From Anabaena sp. PCC 7108 (GTDB lineage: Bacteria; Cyanobacteriota; Cyanobacteriia; Cyanobacteriales; Nostocaceae): DNA of 64,000 bases. Below are positions 16,478-24,541 of this stretch, one piece after another. The DNA lies in contig NZ_KB235896.1 of the NCBI RefSeq assembly GCF_000332135.1, positions 2,119,403 to 2,183,402 of the forward strand. Reading direction: 5' to 3'. Position numbers and translations under genes: made by a program. Each line of letters begins with the position of its first letter. Position 1 is the first letter of the stretch. The notes beneath the pieces are model-generated. The model saw only the letters and a list, made by a program, of their open reading frames with translations, did not search any database and had not been told where the DNA came from.

Positions 16478-17755
16478 CTATGCTGGTTTGATGACAACTA
16501 CACCATAAGCATTGGGGGAAAGATATTGTTGTGCTGCTTGCAGAAGATGATTTGCATCTTGGGCTTGAATATAATCTGGGTAGTTAAATGCTGGTTCTAA
16601 ATCACCAATTAAAGATTGATAATAACCATATAAGCCGGCGCGATCGCTTGGAGTTTCATTCCCAAACACAAACCTATTGGCTACACGTCGCCGCACACGG
16701 GCAATTTCCGACTCTTTTACCATCTCTGTTTGTAGTATATGCAGATGTTGTGCGATCGCTTCCTCTACTATTGCTAAATTTTCTACATCACACTTGGCGG
16801 AAATAGTAAAGACACCTTGCAACAAATTACTCATATTACTCACAGAAATTGAAGATACCAATCCCCTTTCTTCTCGTAAATCCTGCACTAATCTTGATGT
16901 GCGTCCATGTCCTAAAATTCCCGCAACAACATCTAGCGCATACGTATCATTTAACTCTATCAAACCAGGTACTCGCCAAATCATCACCAATCTGGCTTGC
17001 TGGAGACTTTCATCAACAAATTCCCCACGAACAATTTCTGTAAATGCTGGTTCGGGAATAACTGGTTTCTGTTCTCTGTTGACAGTTGATATTACCTTAT
17101 TTTTACTAAATCCTTCAGCCACAATTTCTAGTAATTCTTCTACAGGTAAATTACCCACAGCTACCGCAGTAATTGATTGTGGTTGATACCAATCAGCATG
17201 AAAATCCCGCATTTGTTGCGGTGTAACTTGAGAAACCACCTCTTCTGGCCCCAGTACCGGACGACGGTAGGGTAAAGAATCAAAAGCAGTTTCCATTACC
17301 CGGCGAAAAGTACGACGACGGGGATTATCTTCTGAACGCCTGATTTCTTCTAGAACTACCAAACGTTCCCGTTCAAAAGCATCACCAGGAATACTGGCAT
17401 TAAATACAACATCTATTTGTAGTGGAGCGAGTTCTGCAAAGTCCTGAGGAGCGGTATTTATATAATAATGTGTGTAATCTTGGCTCGTAGCTGCATTAGT
17501 TACTGCACCTCGTTCTTCAATTCGCCGTTCAAACTCGCCACTAGCTAGTCGCTGTGTGCCTTTAAAAATCATATGCTCTAAAAAGTGAGCCATTCCGTTA
17601 ATCGCATCTGACTCTACAGCAGAGCCAATTTTTACCCATAAGCTGAGGTTAACTGCTTCCACGGGCATTTGTTCGGCGATAATTGTTAAACCATTGGGTA
17701 AATGGTGTAGCGTTGGCGCATTGAGGCGTGGGAATTTGAGCAAAGTTGATGTCAT
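16478..17755 (-). CDS. M16 family zinc metallopeptidase
   Basis: 425 residues, the size of the processing-peptidase-like M16B proteins. The inverted zinc motif HFLEH is at residues 57-61, and the third ligand lies in the VVLEEIRRSEDNPRR region about 75 residues later, so this is a catalytically competent subunit. A second, inactive M16-like half follows (GRTSRLVQDLREERGL). Cyanobacteria usually encode two adjacent M16 subunits. No partner is seen here. Confidence 0.93.
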   Translation of the reverse strand: MTSTLLKFPRLNAPTLHHLPNGLTIIAEQMPVEAVNLSLWVKIGSAVESDAINGMAHFLEHMIFKGTQRLASGEFERRIEERGAVTNAATSQDYTHYYINTAPQDFAELAPLQIDVVFNASIPGDAFERERLVVLEEIRRSEDNPRRRTFRRVMETAFDSLPYRRPVLGPEEVVSQVTPQQMRDFHADWYQPQSITAVAVGNLPVEELLEIVAEGFSKNKVISTVNREQKPVIPEPAFTEIVRGEFVDESLQQARLVMIWRVPGLIELNDTYALDVVAGILGHGRTSRLVQDLREERGLVSSISVSNMSNLLQGVFTISAKCDVENLAIVEEAIAQHLHILQTEMVKESEIARVRRRVANRFVFGNETPSDRAGLYGYYQSLIGDLEPAFNYPDYIQAQDANHLLQAAQQYLSPNAYGVVVIKPA

Positions 17756-17897
17756 TGGTTGTGGTGAGGTGAAGAGCTTTGTTACTTCTCATATCTTACA
17801 ACCCCCTCGATGGTGTAAACCCTGTAGAGACGTTTCAATTCAGATTACTGGCTTCTTAAAGAAGTCGGGGATCTTGTTTTTATGATCAAAGTCCTAT

Positions 17898-18443
17898 TTA
17901 TCTAAATAATCCTATTGATTGCAAACTGCTTAGTAATTGAGCAATACCTTGTGCAGCTAGTCCAACACCAACAGCTAAAGCAGAGGAAATTTCAATAATT
18001 CTTAGCAACCCACTAAACTTATCTTTTGCATCATCTAAATTATCTCTTTGATTTTGAATTTCAATAACTATATTATTATCTTTATGATTCAGAGAATCAA
18101 CTAAATTCTCCATTTTTTTTATATGTCGTTCTTGTGTAGTAATGCGTTTTTTGAGATTTTCTAACTTACCATCCATCTGAGTTTTTATTTCACCAATTTT
18201 TTCTTTACACTCCTCTACATTAGTTTCACGAGTTTGAATTGCTGTTTCTACACTAGCAATTAAGTTATTATCTGAATTTGCATAAACTCCTTTACCACTT
18301 TTCAGCATCTTCAGTTTTTCCTGAAGACTTTCCATATCTTCCTGATACTCTTTTTGTGATTCTCCCAAAGTTTCAATTTGTTTACTATTATCTTTAATTT
18401 CATTTTCTAATTCTTGGCGATCGCTATATTCCATCTGTGACAT
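17898..18443 (-). CDS. Unrecognised coiled-coil protein with a C-terminal hydrophobic segment
   Basis: 181 residues. About residues 5-140 are heptad-rich and charged (Glu, Lys, Gln), predicting long coiled coils. About 151-172 is a hydrophobic stretch rich in Ala, Gly, Leu and Ile that could be a membrane anchor. No family recognised. It is the last gene of a leftward four-gene operon; its ATG is 12 bases after the preceding stop. The tail-anchor topology is an inference. Confidence 0.72.
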   Translation of the reverse strand: MSQMEYSDRQELENEIKDNSKQIETLGESQKEYQEDMESLQEKLKMLKSGKGVYANSDNNLIASVETAIQTRETNVEECKEKIGEIKTQMDGKLENLKKRITTQERHIKKMENLVDSLNHKDNNIVIEIQNQRDNLDDAKDKFSGLLRIIEISSALAVGVGLAAQGIAQLLSSLQSIGLFR

Positions 18444-18455
18444 AATTCTTAACCT

Positions 18456-18833
18456 CTATTTCTTAATTTCCCTAAACATATCTTGCAAATCTACCAAATA
18501 TATGCTATTGACAAAATCTATCATTATTTGGCAATCATGGGCAATATTTTTCAATTCTTCGGCTTCAGGATTAGTGGTAAAATGTAATTGTGCTTTAGCA
18601 ATTAATTTTGATAAATCCTGAAACTTAGATACAATTATCTTTTGTTCTTGCTGCATAGAAGCAACAGTTTTTAATGGAGAAATTCCAGATTTTTCTAATT
18701 CATAAAACCAGTCAGGTGCTAAAATTAGTTCTTCGTAGATTTTCAATAATTGTAAATAAGCATGATTGAAGTTTATAGCTTGATTTGCTAAAGTTTCGTA
18801 AGATAAAACCAGATTTTTAACTGCTATATCCAA
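18456..18833 (-). CDS. Unrecognised small helical protein
   Basis: 125 residues, mostly amphipathic helix, no signal peptide and no cysteines conserved in a motif. No family recognised. It lies between the HerA-like ATPase gene and the coiled-coil gene. A MITE lies in the 128-base gap upstream, so its link to the ATPase transcript may be weakened or regulated by that insertion. The tight gap to the next gene suggests those two products work together. Confidence 0.68.
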   Translation of the reverse strand: MDIAVKNLVLSYETLANQAINFNHAYLQLLKIYEELILAPDWFYELEKSGISPLKTVASMQQEQKIIVSKFQDLSKLIAKAQLHFTTNPEAEELKNIAHDCQIMIDFVNSIYLVDLQDMFREIKK

Positions 18834-18866
18834 AATACTTTTCTCCTATTTATAAAATTTATCAAT

Positions 18867-18951
18867 TGTAGGTTGGGTAGAGCGATAGCGAAACCCAACA
18901 TTCTGTATAATTTGTGAAGCGTTGGGTTTCCTTGCGTCAACCCAACCTACA
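18867..18951. mobile_element. MITE-like palindromic repeat, copy 1
   Basis: 85 bases bounded by perfect 12-bp inverted ends TGTAGGTTGGGT / ACCCAACCTACA, with an inner pair GAAACCCAAC / GTTGGGTTTC. The same ends occur at 62043-62159. It has no coding capacity. It sits between the second and third genes of the HerA-like operon and would form a strong hairpin in the mRNA. Confidence 0.85.
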
Positions 18952-18961
18952 GTTATTTTAC

Positions 18962-21900
18962 TCATATTTGTAAATCACGTTTAACCTTATTAATTTTTGC
19001 TTGCTGAATAGCTAAACTCAACACCTCCGTTAACTTATTTTGTAATTCTTGTTTTTCATTTTGCGGACGTTTTAGAGTCTCTTTTAAAGATGATTCCTCA
19101 ATATCGGTAATGCGTCTTTGTTCATAAGCAAGATTATCTTTTAATTTTTGAATATCCGCAACCTGTGATTCTTTATCTAAAACCTGCGCTAAATTGATTA
19201 TCTGTTGTTGAACACTTTGTAATTGACGAGATGATTTTTGCCAAAGTTGTTGATAATGACTTCTACGAATACGGTTATTTGTATCCAACACTTTTTGATA
19301 GGATTGGTCAAATATTCCCAATTTAATATTTACCAAAGATTGTAATTCTACCAAATCCGTTAAAGTTAAATTACCAGCAAGTTGTAAATGCTTCAAACTG
19401 CGGATATTATTAGCATCAATGCGTCTATCTATTTGCAGTGATAATTCATCAGGAACTGGGTTTAAATCAAAACGTAATTTTCCAGCTAAACGATGAAAGA
19501 TTTCCTGTTTTAAATCTGATAATAAAACTTGTAATCCTGTACAATCTTGAGAAACCTGATTTAACTCCTCCCGAATATCAGTTAAACTTTGATTGTGTTC
19601 TTTATCCAAACGTTGATATTCTTGTAAAGCAGTGGATAGTAAAGTTTCCTGACCTTGAATATACCAAGGACGGGATTTAATCACATCTTTAATTTTATCA
19701 TTGGTAATAGAACTTTCTACCCCTAACTTTTCCTTAGCACTATTTTCATAAGGAATTTTTACCGGGTGGGGACGATACCAACCTTCCATATATAAGAAAG
19801 ATTCACCAGGTTGTAACCGCGCAATTTCTTCCATTTGTGATTGGTCTAAAAGCATCGCTTGACCAATATCTTTTCGATCATCTGCTGACACCAAACGATG
19901 AGCAATTTTCACGTTTGTATTTTTGACAACTTCTGCTGCTACTCCTGTGGGTAATTGGTCAGCAATAATAATAGATTCTCTTAATGCCCGCATTTCTGCT
20001 AACATTCTTGTAACATAATTTGCGGCTTCTTGTTTTGTATTTGCATCTTCAGCGGAGGAAGTACCTAAATTTCTCCCGACTAAATTATGTGCTTCTTCTA
20101 ATAATAAAATATGTTCAGGATTTCCGTCCTTTTCCGTGCGTTGACGTTTGATATATTCTCGAATTTTAGTTAGCAAAAAGAACGTCATCAAATTTGCTTG
20201 GTCTTGGTTTAAATAATCCAATTCTAAAATTGTGGGATATTTCAATAAATCAGCAATTGTCGGACTACTGCGTTGAGTATTTAACATCGCACCCACACCA
20301 CGTTTTAATAAACTACCAATTCTCACTTCTAAAGCTGTTTTCAGGTTAGATTTTACCTCACCTGCGTAATCTTTGGTTTCAAATAAAGCGGTGATTTTAT
20401 CATATAAATCCCGCATGGTGGGAATTTGTAAATTTTCTGGTGTTCCTTCTTCGCTTCCCGTCCATTCCCGGTCATAATATATTTCTTCCAATGCTTCGGA
20501 AAGTAAAGCGGGTAAAGGACCAGAAAGAGGTAACGCACCCCGAAAAGATGCTTCTAAATTAGAAATATGTTCATAAAAAGGAACACCTTGGGAAACTTCA
20601 AAGGGATTAAATCGAAAAGGGGAAATTAAATCATTTCCTAATGTGTAAACTCGTAATTGTTGTGTGAGAACTTTTAAAGATTTGAGAAATTCTATATCAG
20701 CGCGAGTAAATTTACTCAGATTAGGGTTGATAGCCAAAAGTGAACGATATTCAGTTTTCGCAGGTTCAAATACTAAAAATGGGATTCCATGACTCCACAA
20801 CTGAGTTAGTAAATTAAAAGCTGTGGTGGTTTTTCCACTTCCAGGAACACCACAAATAAAAGCGTGTTTATTCAGTTGTTTTAATTCTATTTGTATTTTG
20901 TTTTCTTCACCTCGGTTAATTTCATAACCACCAAAATCAATCCATTGTTTATCTTTATCTAAACTGGTAATATCATTTTCTTGACTAATTCCCGCTACAG
21001 GTGCATCACTGGGTACAACTATGCGAAATAAACCACTAATTTCATTTAATGTTGCGTAGCGGTGTAAAGGTTTTAAATCTAAGACGCGCACACTACCTTT
21101 ACCTGTGATAGAGTCACCACCAAATTCTGCTTCTCCTAATCCTTTATCCCATTCTTCCCAGTGGGTAGCGGTGGAAAGTTTTCCTAATTGGGTAGCTGCG
21201 AGACTGTCTGTAAATGTGGGATGATTGGGAGTGAGAATTACTGTGCGGTAGCGGCTTTTTTTCGTTCCACTTAATAACAATGTTCCTAAAACACTGCGAA
21301 CTGCTAACTCATTTTTTCCCAAAACTTTGAAGCTATAACGAAATAAGCTTTCTGTGAGATAGGAAGATTGATATTTTTCATAAATCCGAGAAACTAATTG
21401 TGCGTTTCTGTCTCCTTCTTTAGCGGAACTCAAACTAGAACCACTACTAGCTTGTCTAAGTTGGGATAACATTTGGTCTAATGCGTTTATCCAATTAGAT
21501 TTTTCTTGTAATGTGGTGGTATCTGGTTGAATAGTTATTTCCAACATTAGGGGACTATTGAAACGAGAAATAACTTGACAAACTACTAACATATCGTTAG
21601 CTTCATCTGCTTCTAATTGCAGTGGTACATAATAATTTGGTAGTCCTTTTGTATTTAGTGATGCTAAGGAATCTTTGGGACGAGTGCTGATAATTTCTTC
21701 GTGTTTGATTGCTTCACCAATACAATTTACCCAACTTAGATTTTGAATTTGGGGGACTTCTGTTTGTAATTCAATTTTATAAAATTGGTTGAGAAATCCA
21801 TCGGTGATAATTTTTTTAATGTCTTCAGTAATTTGAGTTTCGGTATCTGGTGAAATAGGTTCTGATTGACTGACGACTAAATAAATACCCAGTCGTTTAT

Positions 21901-22096
21901 CGAAGGGTGAACCGGGTGTATAGCGATAGCGAATGGAAAAGGTGAGGTTATAAACTCTACCGATATCACTGAGGAGGAGTAAGAAGTCTTTTTGACTGCT
22001 GAGGACTTTTTGACGTACTCCTTGTCCATATTGGGAGGTATATTTTTGGGATTTTAGATCAGGGAGTTGGGGTATTTGGAATATGAGGGGGAACAT
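18962..22096 (-). CDS. HerA/FtsK-superfamily ATPase with coiled-coil C-terminus
   Basis: 1044 residues. A DUF87-type hexameric pump ATPase domain carries Walker A GVPGSGKTT at about 415-423 and Walker B HILLLEEAHNL near 660-668. A conserved DQLPTGVAAEVVKNTNVKIAHRL region follows, where HerA-like proteins place sensor and arginine-finger residues. The first 380 residues form an uncharacterised N-terminal part. About 800-1044 is strongly coiled coil. Typical HerA is about half this size and pairs with the nuclease NurA. No nuclease is next to this one. It starts 10 bases after the stop of the HEAT-like membrane protein gene, so the two are surely co-transcribed. Confidence 0.85.
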   Translation of the reverse strand: MFPLIFQIPQLPDLKSQKYTSQYGQGVRQKVLSSQKDFLLLLSDIGRVYNLTFSIRYRYTPGSPFDKRLGIYLVVSQSEPISPDTETQITEDIKKIITDGFLNQFYKIELQTEVPQIQNLSWVNCIGEAIKHEEIISTRPKDSLASLNTKGLPNYYVPLQLEADEANDMLVVCQVISRFNSPLMLEITIQPDTTTLQEKSNWINALDQMLSQLRQASSGSSLSSAKEGDRNAQLVSRIYEKYQSSYLTESLFRYSFKVLGKNELAVRSVLGTLLLSGTKKSRYRTVILTPNHPTFTDSLAATQLGKLSTATHWEEWDKGLGEAEFGGDSITGKGSVRVLDLKPLHRYATLNEISGLFRIVVPSDAPVAGISQENDITSLDKDKQWIDFGGYEINRGEENKIQIELKQLNKHAFICGVPGSGKTTTAFNLLTQLWSHGIPFLVFEPAKTEYRSLLAINPNLSKFTRADIEFLKSLKVLTQQLRVYTLGNDLISPFRFNPFEVSQGVPFYEHISNLEASFRGALPLSGPLPALLSEALEEIYYDREWTGSEEGTPENLQIPTMRDLYDKITALFETKDYAGEVKSNLKTALEVRIGSLLKRGVGAMLNTQRSSPTIADLLKYPTILELDYLNQDQANLMTFFLLTKIREYIKRQRTEKDGNPEHILLLEEAHNLVGRNLGTSSAEDANTKQEAANYVTRMLAEMRALRESIIIADQLPTGVAAEVVKNTNVKIAHRLVSADDRKDIGQAMLLDQSQMEEIARLQPGESFLYMEGWYRPHPVKIPYENSAKEKLGVESSITNDKIKDVIKSRPWYIQGQETLLSTALQEYQRLDKEHNQSLTDIREELNQVSQDCTGLQVLLSDLKQEIFHRLAGKLRFDLNPVPDELSLQIDRRIDANNIRSLKHLQLAGNLTLTDLVELQSLVNIKLGIFDQSYQKVLDTNNRIRRSHYQQLWQKSSRQLQSVQQQIINLAQVLDKESQVADIQKLKDNLAYEQRRITDIEESSLKETLKRPQNEKQELQNKLTEVLSLAIQQAKINKVKRDLQI

Positions 22097-22106
22097 GGTT
22101 GAATAA

Positions 22107-23720
22107 TTAAATTGATAATAGGTTTAATATTTTGTTTTTTTGATCATTAATGCTATTTCTTTCACTATATTTATTACTTTGAAATTCATTAGTAATATTG
22201 CCAGCAATTTTTATTAGCATTTTAGATATTATTGAAAATATATAACCAAGTACAATTGTTCCAAATATCTGAATCCCTACAGGATTATTATTAGCAATGG
22301 CAATTATAAAAAAAGCAATCATGTATGAAACTATTAAGAATATTGTTTGACTGGATTCTAATTCTTTAATAAATTTCTCTCTATTTTTAATATTTCTTTC
22401 TATAGGTGATAATTGCTCTTCATAAAATTTATTTACTTCACGTCTTAATCTTGATAACTCATCACGTAAGAAATTTAGATAATCATCTAATATTGAATTA
22501 TATTCTTCATTTTCTTCTATATTAATATAGGGAACATTTTGAAAATTGTTTTTTGATATTACTTTTGTGTACACTGAAGTATTTATTGCTTCTATTTCAT
22601 CTATTTTCCTATCAAGTGTAGACTTCATATTTTGAATTTGCTTGTACTTATTTTCACACATATTTTTTCTTTTAGTGATTTCATTTCTCAAACCATTTAA
22701 AAAATTATTGCAATCATCTTTTACTCTATTTCTACCTAATGTTGACAATAAAGTTATCAAATTATTGGCTATAAATTTCAAATTTTTATAAGACTTACCA
22801 TTATAGTACAATTTAGAGTCGTTATTTGCATTAAATTCTTCTTTAATCAAAGAGATAGCAGTTAACAAATCGGGTTGGTAATAATTATTAAACTTACCCA
22901 ACAATGAAACATCTATTTCAGATAAATTATGAGCAGCTATATTTCTAATATTTCGATTTTTACTTTGTAAACAATGAACTTGAGTTTCTATCAAGTCATC
23001 ACGATTTATAACTTGATTGTTGATCTGTTTCATTGCTTCTTGACAAGCAGCCAATTCAAACAATTCATTTTCATCAACTGTTAATGCAGAATTTTCCATA
23101 GATTCCGCTCTTTCTAAACCATGATTTACATCCTTAATCGCTCTCACAACTAAATCGCTAAATATCTTAGTAATTAGTTCTTCGTATTTAGAATCTTGTC
23201 CATAGGACATAGAAGCTGTCTGACTTTTTAATTCGTTTAAATTTCCATATATCCAAAAATTTAAATATTCATCAAAATCATTATTTGATAGTAGATTTTT
23301 ATCCTCCAGTCGTTTCAGTTTAGATTGTATTATTCTGTCAGCAATATTCTTCGGTTCTACCGTTAAATGTTGAGATACAGCAATAAAATCAAACCCCAAA
23401 TTTACAATAGTCGTAGCAGCAGACCAACGAATTAATTCTGTTTGTCCTGACTTTGCTTGCTCACTTAAAATCGCCAACAAATCATCACTTTGCTTCAATC
23501 TTTCCCTAGTATCTACATCCGTAATCTTGCCAAAAGCCTGACTAGTTAAAGCCACCACTGCTTCTAATTTAATATTTCTCAATATTTCTACAAAAGCCTC
23601 AACAGGTGGACCATCACTTGTCGCTAATGCTTCAAATAAATCAATTTGTTCCCCTGCATTTTGACATTTCGGAAAGGCGTTAATGATATCAGCCGCAGTT
23701 CTGAGGCTGGAGTAATCCAT
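22107..23720 (-). CDS. Membrane protein with HEAT-like helical N-terminus
   Basis: 537 residues. The first 300 or so are short paired helices resembling degenerate HEAT repeats (for example IRNIAAHNLSEID and VVALTSQAFGKI). A coiled-coil stretch (about 340-455) follows, then two TM segments at about 459-476 and 481-505 and a short polar tail. No exact family recognised. The gene is visibly more AT-rich than its neighbours and rich in Asn/Ile/Lys codons, hinting at foreign origin. First gene of the operon; probably the membrane platform or sensor for the ATPase (inference). Confidence 0.75.
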   Translation of the reverse strand: MDYSSLRTAADIINAFPKCQNAGEQIDLFEALATSDGPPVEAFVEILRNIKLEAVVALTSQAFGKITDVDTRERLKQSDDLLAILSEQAKSGQTELIRWSAATTIVNLGFDFIAVSQHLTVEPKNIADRIIQSKLKRLEDKNLLSNNDFDEYLNFWIYGNLNELKSQTASMSYGQDSKYEELITKIFSDLVVRAIKDVNHGLERAESMENSALTVDENELFELAACQEAMKQINNQVINRDDLIETQVHCLQSKNRNIRNIAAHNLSEIDVSLLGKFNNYYQPDLLTAISLIKEEFNANNDSKLYYNGKSYKNLKFIANNLITLLSTLGRNRVKDDCNNFLNGLRNEITKRKNMCENKYKQIQNMKSTLDRKIDEIEAINTSVYTKVISKNNFQNVPYINIEENEEYNSILDDYLNFLRDELSRLRREVNKFYEEQLSPIERNIKNREKFIKELESSQTIFLIVSYMIAFFIIAIANNNPVGIQIFGTIVLGYIFSIISKMLIKIAGNITNEFQSNKYSERNSINDQKNKILNLLSI

Positions 23721-23971
23721 ACTGATGGTAGATGTGACAAGTTACGTCCATTGAGAATAACATAGGTAACAACGTAACAATACAGTGCTTATACTTAATT
23801 AACACTTAGTGAAAAATCTTGAATAGATCCAGATTCAGTAGAGGTTTAGCAATGCTTACTTGCGTAAGTCTTAACTAAGTTATTCTATCTATAGGTGGAA
23901 GCTGACTGAGATATTTAATTTTCTATATTATTGTATAATAGATTTATCTTCGTTTTTAAGAGGATTTGTCC

Positions 23972-24427
23972 ATGAAAACAGAAGCTAAGTTAACCCTCTA
24001 CGAAACTGACTTTAATCTCTGGTTAGAACAAACCGCGATTCTCCTGCAAGAAGGCAAATTAGAACAATTAGATATTGAAAATTTACTTGAAGAAATTGAA
24101 GGGATGAGTCGCAAAGAAAAAGATGCTTTAGAAAGTAATCTAATTCGGGTAATTCAACATTTACTTAAGTGGCATTATCAAATAGAAAAACGCTCTCCCA
24201 GTTGGTCTTATAGTATTTTTGAGCACTCTCGCAGACTAAATAAAGCTTTTAAAAATAGTCCTAGTTTGAAGGGTCACTTTGATGCTGTATTTGAAGAATG
24301 TTACTATGAAGCCTGCAAAGCGGCTGCTGTTGAAACCCAACTCCCTTTAGTTACTTTTCCTGAATCATGTCCCTTTACCAAGTCTGATGTTTTGGAAGTT
24401 AATGTTGATGATTATTTAATAGAATAA
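23972..24427 (+). CDS. DUF29 family protein
   Basis: 151 residues. The sequence YETDFNLWLEQTAILLQEGKLEQLDIENLLEEIE followed by SRKEKDALESNL is the typical start of the DUF29 family, which is common in multiple copies in cyanobacteria and has no established function. The ATG at 23972 has AAGAGG at 23958-23963, spaced 8 bases; a TTG two codons earlier is less likely. Transcribed away from the HerA operon. Confidence 0.85.
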   Translation: MKTEAKLTLYETDFNLWLEQTAILLQEGKLEQLDIENLLEEIEGMSRKEKDALESNLIRVIQHLLKWHYQIEKRSPSWSYSIFEHSRRLNKAFKNSPSLKGHFDAVFEECYYEACKAAAVETQLPLVTFPESCPFTKSDVLEVNVDDYLIE

Positions 24428-24541
24428 AATCTAATTTCCGACATTTTACATAAAATTATTTCCGTTTCAACTTTGATTAGTTTTGGGCAGGCAAGATGCC
24501 TACCCCACAAGAATTAGACCACTTCTGTTACTAAATTTTTA

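Follow-up and report, generated by a model that had tools for sequence, protein, structure and literature searches.

The DNA analysed here is a 64,000-nucleotide stretch of the genome of Anabaena sp. PCC 7108 (the whole stretch is called the window below), and its subject is an operon of four genes, A to D, in which B encodes a HerA-type ATPase. A preliminary description, made from the sequence alone, had reported four leftward genes with gaps of 10, 128 and 12 bases and a miniature inverted-repeat transposable element (MITE) in the second gap. The open reading frames (ORFs) and the A-B, B-C and C-D gaps were confirmed, and, counting the MITE-like repeat itself, the host genome contains 37 matches to it, many of them partial and a few being places counted on both strands. 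The features are given below with their positions in the window.

22107-23720, minus strand: gene A, an ORF of 537 amino acids (aa)
18962-22096, minus strand: gene B, an ORF of 1044 aa, the motor
18862-18956, no strand: MITE-like inverted repeat in the gap between B and C, not counted in the system
18456-18833, minus strand: gene C, an ORF of 125 aa with a TTG start after AGGAGA, read as all-helical
17898-18443, minus strand: gene D, a coiled-coil protein of 181 aa with a hydrophobic C-terminus (residues 143-174)
23721-23807, minus strand: conserved DNA directly upstream of A, listed on the basis of a DNA match to locus L018; perhaps the promoter side of the cassette

Curated families of Pfam and NCBIfam gave no match above cut-off for A, C or D. 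PADLOC returned nothing for A or C and coiled-coil-type matches for D, and no Rfam family reached its gathering score across 17000-24500. The host genome holds a single copy each of C and D, plus a weak coiled-coil match to D.

The product of gene B consists of an N-terminal domain (N-domain, residues ~1-390), a HerA/DUF87 ATPase (~396-780) and a long helical tail (~799-1043). The earlier identification of a HerA-type ATPase holds, as GVPGSGKTT and HILLLEEAHN, which we take to be Walker A and Walker B, begin at residues 416 and 662, and B passes the Pfam model DUF87 (HerA central domain) with 25.0 against a cut-off of 23.2. It stays below the cut-offs of FtsK_SpoIIIE (Pfam; 16.9 against 24), TrwB (15.6 of 20.5 bits) and SXT_TraD (15.0 of 366 bits). 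The ATPase domain also matches the PADLOC model mad8 (1.4e-17) and HerA models, and it resembles CedD (NCBIfam NF053655) with an E-value of 3.5e-21, at 75.5 bits against a cut-off of 600. The tail, previously called a coiled coil, is indeed predicted to be mostly long helices, but in the more confident part of a poor AlphaFold model; the models were too poor for use, with a mean predicted local distance difference test (pLDDT) of 44.6 and 50.0. No membrane segment was found in B.

It is the N-domain, for which Pfam has no match, that connects B to other loci. Residues 2-423 of B match the 684-aa FtsK-type motor of locus L020 (blastp E 1.2e-48, independent of alignment A1), and an N-domain of ~390 aa fused to either a HerA- or an FtsK-type ATPase is the signature of the family, which B carries. 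Using a profile of alignment A1, which holds both motor classes so that the E-values of its own rows are self-matches, the N-domain was found in 34 of 388 genomes of the order, a count that takes in relics. In a sample of the phylum it was found in 9 of 292 genomes, every one in the same order. On a tree of the N-domain (without L070, a near copy of L069, and without L085 and L086; the span extracted for L059, L060, L074, L081 and L083 runs into the ATPase, and long branches meet), HerA and FtsK motors lie on the two sides of one branch with support of 100/99, so that one motor exchange suffices on this sample. The motor labels of the tree were set by length and afterwards confirmed for all cores by blastp of both ATPase modules, by which the two classes separate without overlap, and for 10 cores by Pfam. 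Pfam agrees with the motor class for the four FtsK-class motors scanned (L020, L021, L075, L080) and for seven HerA-class relatives; two motors pass both models, L075 (FtsK 46.6 bits, DUF87 24.5 bits) and L081 (DUF87 53.9 bits, FtsK 28.8 bits). A second HerA-like ATPase of the host genome (959 aa, G000:C2 ~3393355-3396234, or L026:8355-11234), which has its own downstream genes, was missed by the N-domain search.

The FtsK class comprises 20 loci (L020, L021, L061-L072 and L075-L080). In all of them the motor is 667-695 aa long and consists of the N-domain and an FtsK/SpoIIIE-type ATPase, with one C-terminal FtsK domain as the recognised ATPase. A HEAT/coiled-coil/membrane protein is encoded upstream; it corresponds to A, which has a HEAT-like adaptor (residues ~1-195), a helical and coiled-coil body, a membrane region at 454-507 and a conserved end, KILNLLSI. 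A matches the upstream protein of L020 in blastp (E 1.2e-5), and profile-profile alignment of the A adaptor with the upstream proteins of the FtsK-class loci gave an E-value of 6.6e-24 (hhalign). A profile built from window-type A proteins only finds the partner at 17 of the 20 FtsK-class loci (E 8.9e-24 to 1.8e-9), and at the three others (L021, L062, L067) the contig ends there. The earlier reading of A as a HEAT-like membrane protein is sustained for the membrane region, but Pfam did not detect HEAT repeats in the window's A itself; HEAT_2 falls just below the Pfam cut-off in two FtsK-class relatives, L020 and L068.

Relatives of A add an FKBP or other C-terminal module after the membrane segment. 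The A homologue at L018:6349-8766 ends in an FKBP-type peptidyl-prolyl isomerase (Pfam 1.6e-37), and some FtsK-class upstream proteins carry beyond the membrane segment a module that is SPOR-like by eye, for which Pfam gave no support in the four scanned (L020, L061, L068, L080). At L060:10017-11426, a dynamin-family GTPase (Pfam Dynamin_N, 2e-16) lies upstream, in place of A, beside B, C and D.

Downstream of the motor, 20 of 20 FtsK-class loci encode a small hairpin protein of 71-78 aa (92 aa in L067, with an upstream start) and a hairpin-fused protein of 225-317 aa, in which the hairpin is repeated and joined to a varying C-terminal domain. Eight fused proteins were scanned with Pfam, seven whole and that of L071 by its C-terminal part. 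Two contain a domain above cut-off, namely EndoU in L067 (3e-11) and a MafB19 deaminase in L080 (4e-9), the latter adjoined by an Imm1 gene (1.2e-13); GIY-YIG lies slightly under the cut-off in L079 (8.6e-4), L062 and L071 have other sub-threshold matches, and L020, L021 and L078 have no match of note. Gene neighbours at the relatives include CdiA_C at L020 (8e-12) and EndoU at L063 (5e-10), both, like Imm1, above the Pfam cut-off; five further immunity or cassette candidates gave no Pfam match above cut-off. The C-terminal domain of the L021 fused protein recurs as a stand-alone gene in L069 (78% identity), a swap which is, judged by sequence, the cassette exchange typical of polymorphic toxins. 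By these predicted domains the FtsK branch of the family is clearly tied to polymorphic toxins, and the FtsK-class loci are apparently an undescribed cyanobacterial polymorphic toxin system. One locus of the HerA branch, L073, seems to carry toxin-like cargo too, though without A: a protein there shares 40% identity (E 2e-40) in its C-terminal domain with the L078 fused protein, and this domain has no Pfam match and was read as a nuclease by eye.

Hairpins were found in 25 of the 388 genomes, and 21 of these are among the 34 N-domain genomes. The remaining four are G503, where a contig end cuts the sequence short, and G367, G359 and G229, which have hairpin pieces or hairpin-fused genes with no motor in the stretch seen. 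The relatives' hairpins resemble WXG100 weakly (6 of 26, best E 0.0088). A profile search of PDB with the hairpins was not used as evidence; up to E 10 it gave 102 sequences, of which the best 60 are considered here. Its top match, a designed repeat protein (6.3e-10), had no stretch passing alone and was taken as a repeat artefact; three IbpA adenylyltransferase sequences followed (5e-4 to 6e-4, over a helical stretch), then designed and coiled-coil proteins, and a weak match to HP0062 (E 0.19). Arrays of hairpin-fused toxin-like and immunity-like genes also occur at L162, L163 and L166, with no motor in the stretch seen; L162 has in addition a HEAT-adaptor-like fragment (by eye).

Loci of the window type were collected one per genome (n = 8): the window, L006/L107 (Anabaena lutea), L018, L057/L004, L058/L003, L017/L010, L059 and L060/L007. 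Downstream of the motor, two small helical proteins are encoded at all eight, and the preliminary grouping of these genes with the ATPase is borne out, since every one of the 8 intact loci has C and D alongside B (at L059, where an additional gene separates B from C, their assignment rests on position and alignment). Six of the eight also have a homologue of A beside these genes, upstream in five and downstream in L017; in L058, where no A is visible, the contig ends there. The additional gene of L059 (10862-11836) encodes an MshEN domain followed by a copy of the HEAT-like adaptor of A (E 3e-53). Beside C, where the window has its MITE, a HicA/HicB-like pair (by eye) is found in two genomes, at L167:2863-3328 and L003:3406-3885.

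Strong matches to C were found in 9 of the 388 genomes, all nine with a window-type motor or relic, together with two weak matches. Conversely, C was found in 9 of the 10 genomes with a window-type motor or relic; the exception, G555, has a broken motor and was left out of the Fisher test for C, and as the genomes are related, the co-occurrence p-values overstate independence. The C-terminus of D is moderately hydrophobic; the best 19-residue hydropathy value of D is 1.78, within a range of 0.79 to 1.95 across 14 D or D-like proteins, so that of the membrane segments formerly assigned to the first and last genes, that of A stands but a conserved membrane helix in D is not established. A possible extension of the D family to the ~290-aa coiled-coil proteins of L081-L084 is weak (hhalign E 2.3e-6, probability 89, against a probability of 1 for another coiled-coil pair used as control) and uncertain because these are coiled coils. 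The idea that C or D is a WXG-like hairpin found no support, as neither has detectable homology to the relatives' hairpins or a WXG100 match in Pfam.

The four genes form a conserved, horizontally mobile cassette that is sometimes decayed. At the window's chromosomal site, the same-genus genome G598 carries the operon, the two flanking genes are directly adjacent in G597, with no operon, and other genes are present instead in G572 and G599 (G572 has no N-domain genome-wide; G597 and G599 were checked at this site). The operon thus lies in a variable island. In L018, which belongs to another genus, the cassette lies elsewhere in the chromosome, and the DNA match spans 23807 to 17894, so that it takes in 87 bases ahead of A and stops shortly after D, with interruptions inside A. 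The synonymous divergence (dS) from L058 is 0.285 for B and 0.973 for the flanking M16 peptidase gene, which argues for horizontal transfer of the cassette. Compared with A. lutea, the window has a dS of 0.64 in A, 0.29 in B and 0.14 in D; within A the first 88 codons are at 0.31 and the rest at 0.60-0.88. The cassette is thus a mosaic in which the body of A has been exchanged or diverges fast.

Conservation of the set is more than chance, as the cassette is kept in other genomes and the ratio of nonsynonymous to synonymous divergence (dN/dS) of B is 0.10-0.12, which indicates strong purifying selection; constraint is lowest at the membrane end of A and the C-terminus of D. Decay takes several forms. 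The relic in G048 retains 63 residues of B, an intact D and a C interrupted by a stop, with A absent from the 9 kb seen; G127 has a truncated B and intact C and D, and has lost A; G555 has broken pieces of B and is not among the genomes with a C match. A phage or plasmid origin was considered and rejected. Scanning viral_contigs with the N-domain gave 31 candidate stretches, of which none was confirmed, and the two matches in the phage collection begin at residues 341 and 391, thus covering the ATPase part. Matches to B were found in 43 of 72,556 plasmid records, where the 40 matches listed begin at residue 341 or later, and 162 records match the FtsK-type motor of L020, where the 20 listed begin at residue 327 or later.

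Taken together, A-D can be read, with about an even chance of being right, as one form of a cyanobacterial membrane-anchored, ATP-driven protein-export machine with a type VII-like logic. Export is favoured because the N-domain of B and the adaptor of A are common to the toxin/immunity loci. B would be the motor, in which the HerA ring uses ATP to pull or push helical substrates. A would be the membrane platform, its HEAT-like N-terminus docking B and its coiled coil and membrane region anchoring the machine. C and D would stand in for the hairpin chaperone and hairpin-toxin of the FtsK-class loci, with which they are equated by position only and not by homology. On that placement C may be a substrate chaperone or adaptor and D an exported or membrane-inserted substrate, perhaps, by speculative analogy, a membrane-active effector. 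The paper on TelE (PMC10434224) describes a type VII secretion system (T7SS) effector that permeabilises membranes through a C-terminal glycine zipper, and the coiled coil and small-residue-rich hydrophobic end of D may recall such effectors, by analogy only.

Several observations weigh against export. No toxin domain or immunity gene was recognised in the window cassette A-D (Pfam, NCBIfam, PADLOC), C and D have no detectable homology to the FtsK-class hairpins, and no hairpin protein turns up in the host genome at E <= 1e-5. As the N-domain tree places the HerA and FtsK motors in separate clades, the two may have diverged in function. An A-type adaptor is missing from the stretch searched at the toxin-bearing L073 and at the other distant HerA loci, L074 and L081-L085. 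Six of the eight fused proteins scanned have no Pfam match above cut-off. G048 keeps an intact D although its B is a relic and A was absent from the 9 kb seen, which is unlike a self-toxic effector. No outer-membrane component was noticed at any locus, although no systematic search was made. Finally, HerA-type ATPases of other families are defence proteins.

Anti-phage or anti-plasmid defence is indeed the main rival, if on balance an unlikely one: the HerA ring would sense or pump foreign DNA, and A and D would depolarise or kill the infected cell at the membrane. The mad8 and HerA matches of the B ATPase domain fit this, as do the presence or absence of the island between species of one genus and the low constraint on the membrane region of A and the C-terminus of D; a different HerA-branch ATPase on a Photobacterium plasmid (L160), beside a DUF2357 protein, also lies near csm6 in a defence-like setting. 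However, the PADLOC matches are confined to the common ATPase domain, and the signature N-domain and A adaptor are shared with toxin-immunity loci. As the preliminary description had noted, no nuclease or other known HerA effector is seen: no NurA, SIR2 or DUF4297 partner was recognised in A-D (Pfam, NCBIfam, PADLOC) or in the six flanking genes (PADLOC only), and PADLOC found no other mads gene there beside the mad8-like B. It is also conceivable, but improbable, that the cassette is a toxin-less, resistance-like derivative that retains motor and partners but confers protection, with C and D resembling immunity proteins or antitoxins, or that serves membrane housekeeping. No toxin domain is recognised in the window, and decayed copies that have lost A, together with part or most of B, retain D (G048) or both C and D (G127); yet the purifying selection on B suggests that the motor itself is in use, and a housekeeping role fits poorly with the patchy distribution and the mobility.

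A DNA pump of a conjugative or mobilisable element is very improbable. The ATPase is HerA/TraG-like, and conjugation-type (VirB4-like) and related genes follow the cassette in L007 (by eye), but this is one of eight loci and the genes lie outside the cassette. The matches of B to TrwB, SXT_TraD and FtsK all remain under curated cut-offs, and a by-eye look noticed no relaxase or pilus gene beside the window cassette. The suggestion of a membrane-tethered DNA or filament pump, possibly related to defence or conjugation, is upheld in part: membrane tethering, probably via A, is supported, but the relatives' toxin and Imm1 loci favour protein export, and the toxin link of the family lies outside the window, at the loci of its relatives.

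If the export reading is true, the cassette would be a dedicated mobile competition machine of cyanobacteria that is neither a type V secretion system (T5SS) of the contact-dependent inhibition (CDI) kind, nor a type VI system (T6SS), nor a canonical T7SS, and type VII-like export would extend to cells with an outer membrane. The same N-domain on HerA or FtsK motors offers a direct way into the question of how ATPases that pump come to act on protein rather than DNA, and the loci supply candidate toxin-immunity pairs and empty-site strains. A bolder version, which is put forward tentatively, is that the family is a new secretion class of diderm cyanobacteria in which type VII logic is repeated convergently or distantly, HerA and FtsK motors are interchangeable, and the window form exports or inserts the small coiled-coil, membrane-active effector D rather than a hairpin-fused toxin.

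The operon had been called unrecognised, and no described system was matched to it; no published description of the A-D set was found among the papers listed by searches of an open-access collection, which includes few subscription papers and no bioRxiv preprints. MADS8 and the HerA ATPases of defence resemble B in the ATPase domain and differ from it in N-domain, tail and partners. CedD, a DNA-translocating ATPase, is likewise similar in the ATPase domain, but B is far under the curated cut-off. Different cyanobacterial HerA loci (L022:6793-7563 and L111:9461-10180) encode predicted zinc metallopeptidase proteins, which show weak similarity, in every case under the cut-off, to Peptidase_Mx1 and in L111 also to a lethal-factor-type domain. 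CDI and other polymorphic toxin systems share CdiA_C, EndoU, MafB19 and Imm1 with the relatives' loci, whereas the window cassette has none of these domains; a toxin fused to a constant export domain is found in the FtsK-class relatives and not in A-D. No two-partner (CdiB-type) transporter caught attention at the loci of the relatives, where no systematic search was made.

Another close comparison is with T7SSa/b (EccC/EssC, WXG100 and LXG toxins). The paper of Zhang et al. 2012 (PMC3482391) describes mobile T7SS versions with solo WXG proteins and a distinct YueA-like ATPase in lineages including cyanobacteria, an ATPase with three HerA/FtsK domains of which the middle one alone is active, and it confines T7SS toxin neighbourhoods to Firmicutes, Actinobacteria and Chloroflexi. 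The relatives reported here have one recognised FtsK domain and toxin domains nearby, and may or may not overlap with those versions. The window system differs from T7SS in its HerA-type motor, in which a single ATPase domain is recognised and a membrane helix is lacking, unlike the membrane-bound FtsK-type EccC/EssC. The membrane function resides in A, neither C nor D is homologous to the relatives' hairpins or matches WXG100, and the host is diderm. It resembles T7SS in combining a motor of the FtsK/HerA superfamily with a small helical partner. The likeness goes further in the FtsK-class relatives, which have an N-terminal helical domain fused to varying toxin-like domains, accompanied by an Imm1 gene in one case and by immunity-like genes in others.

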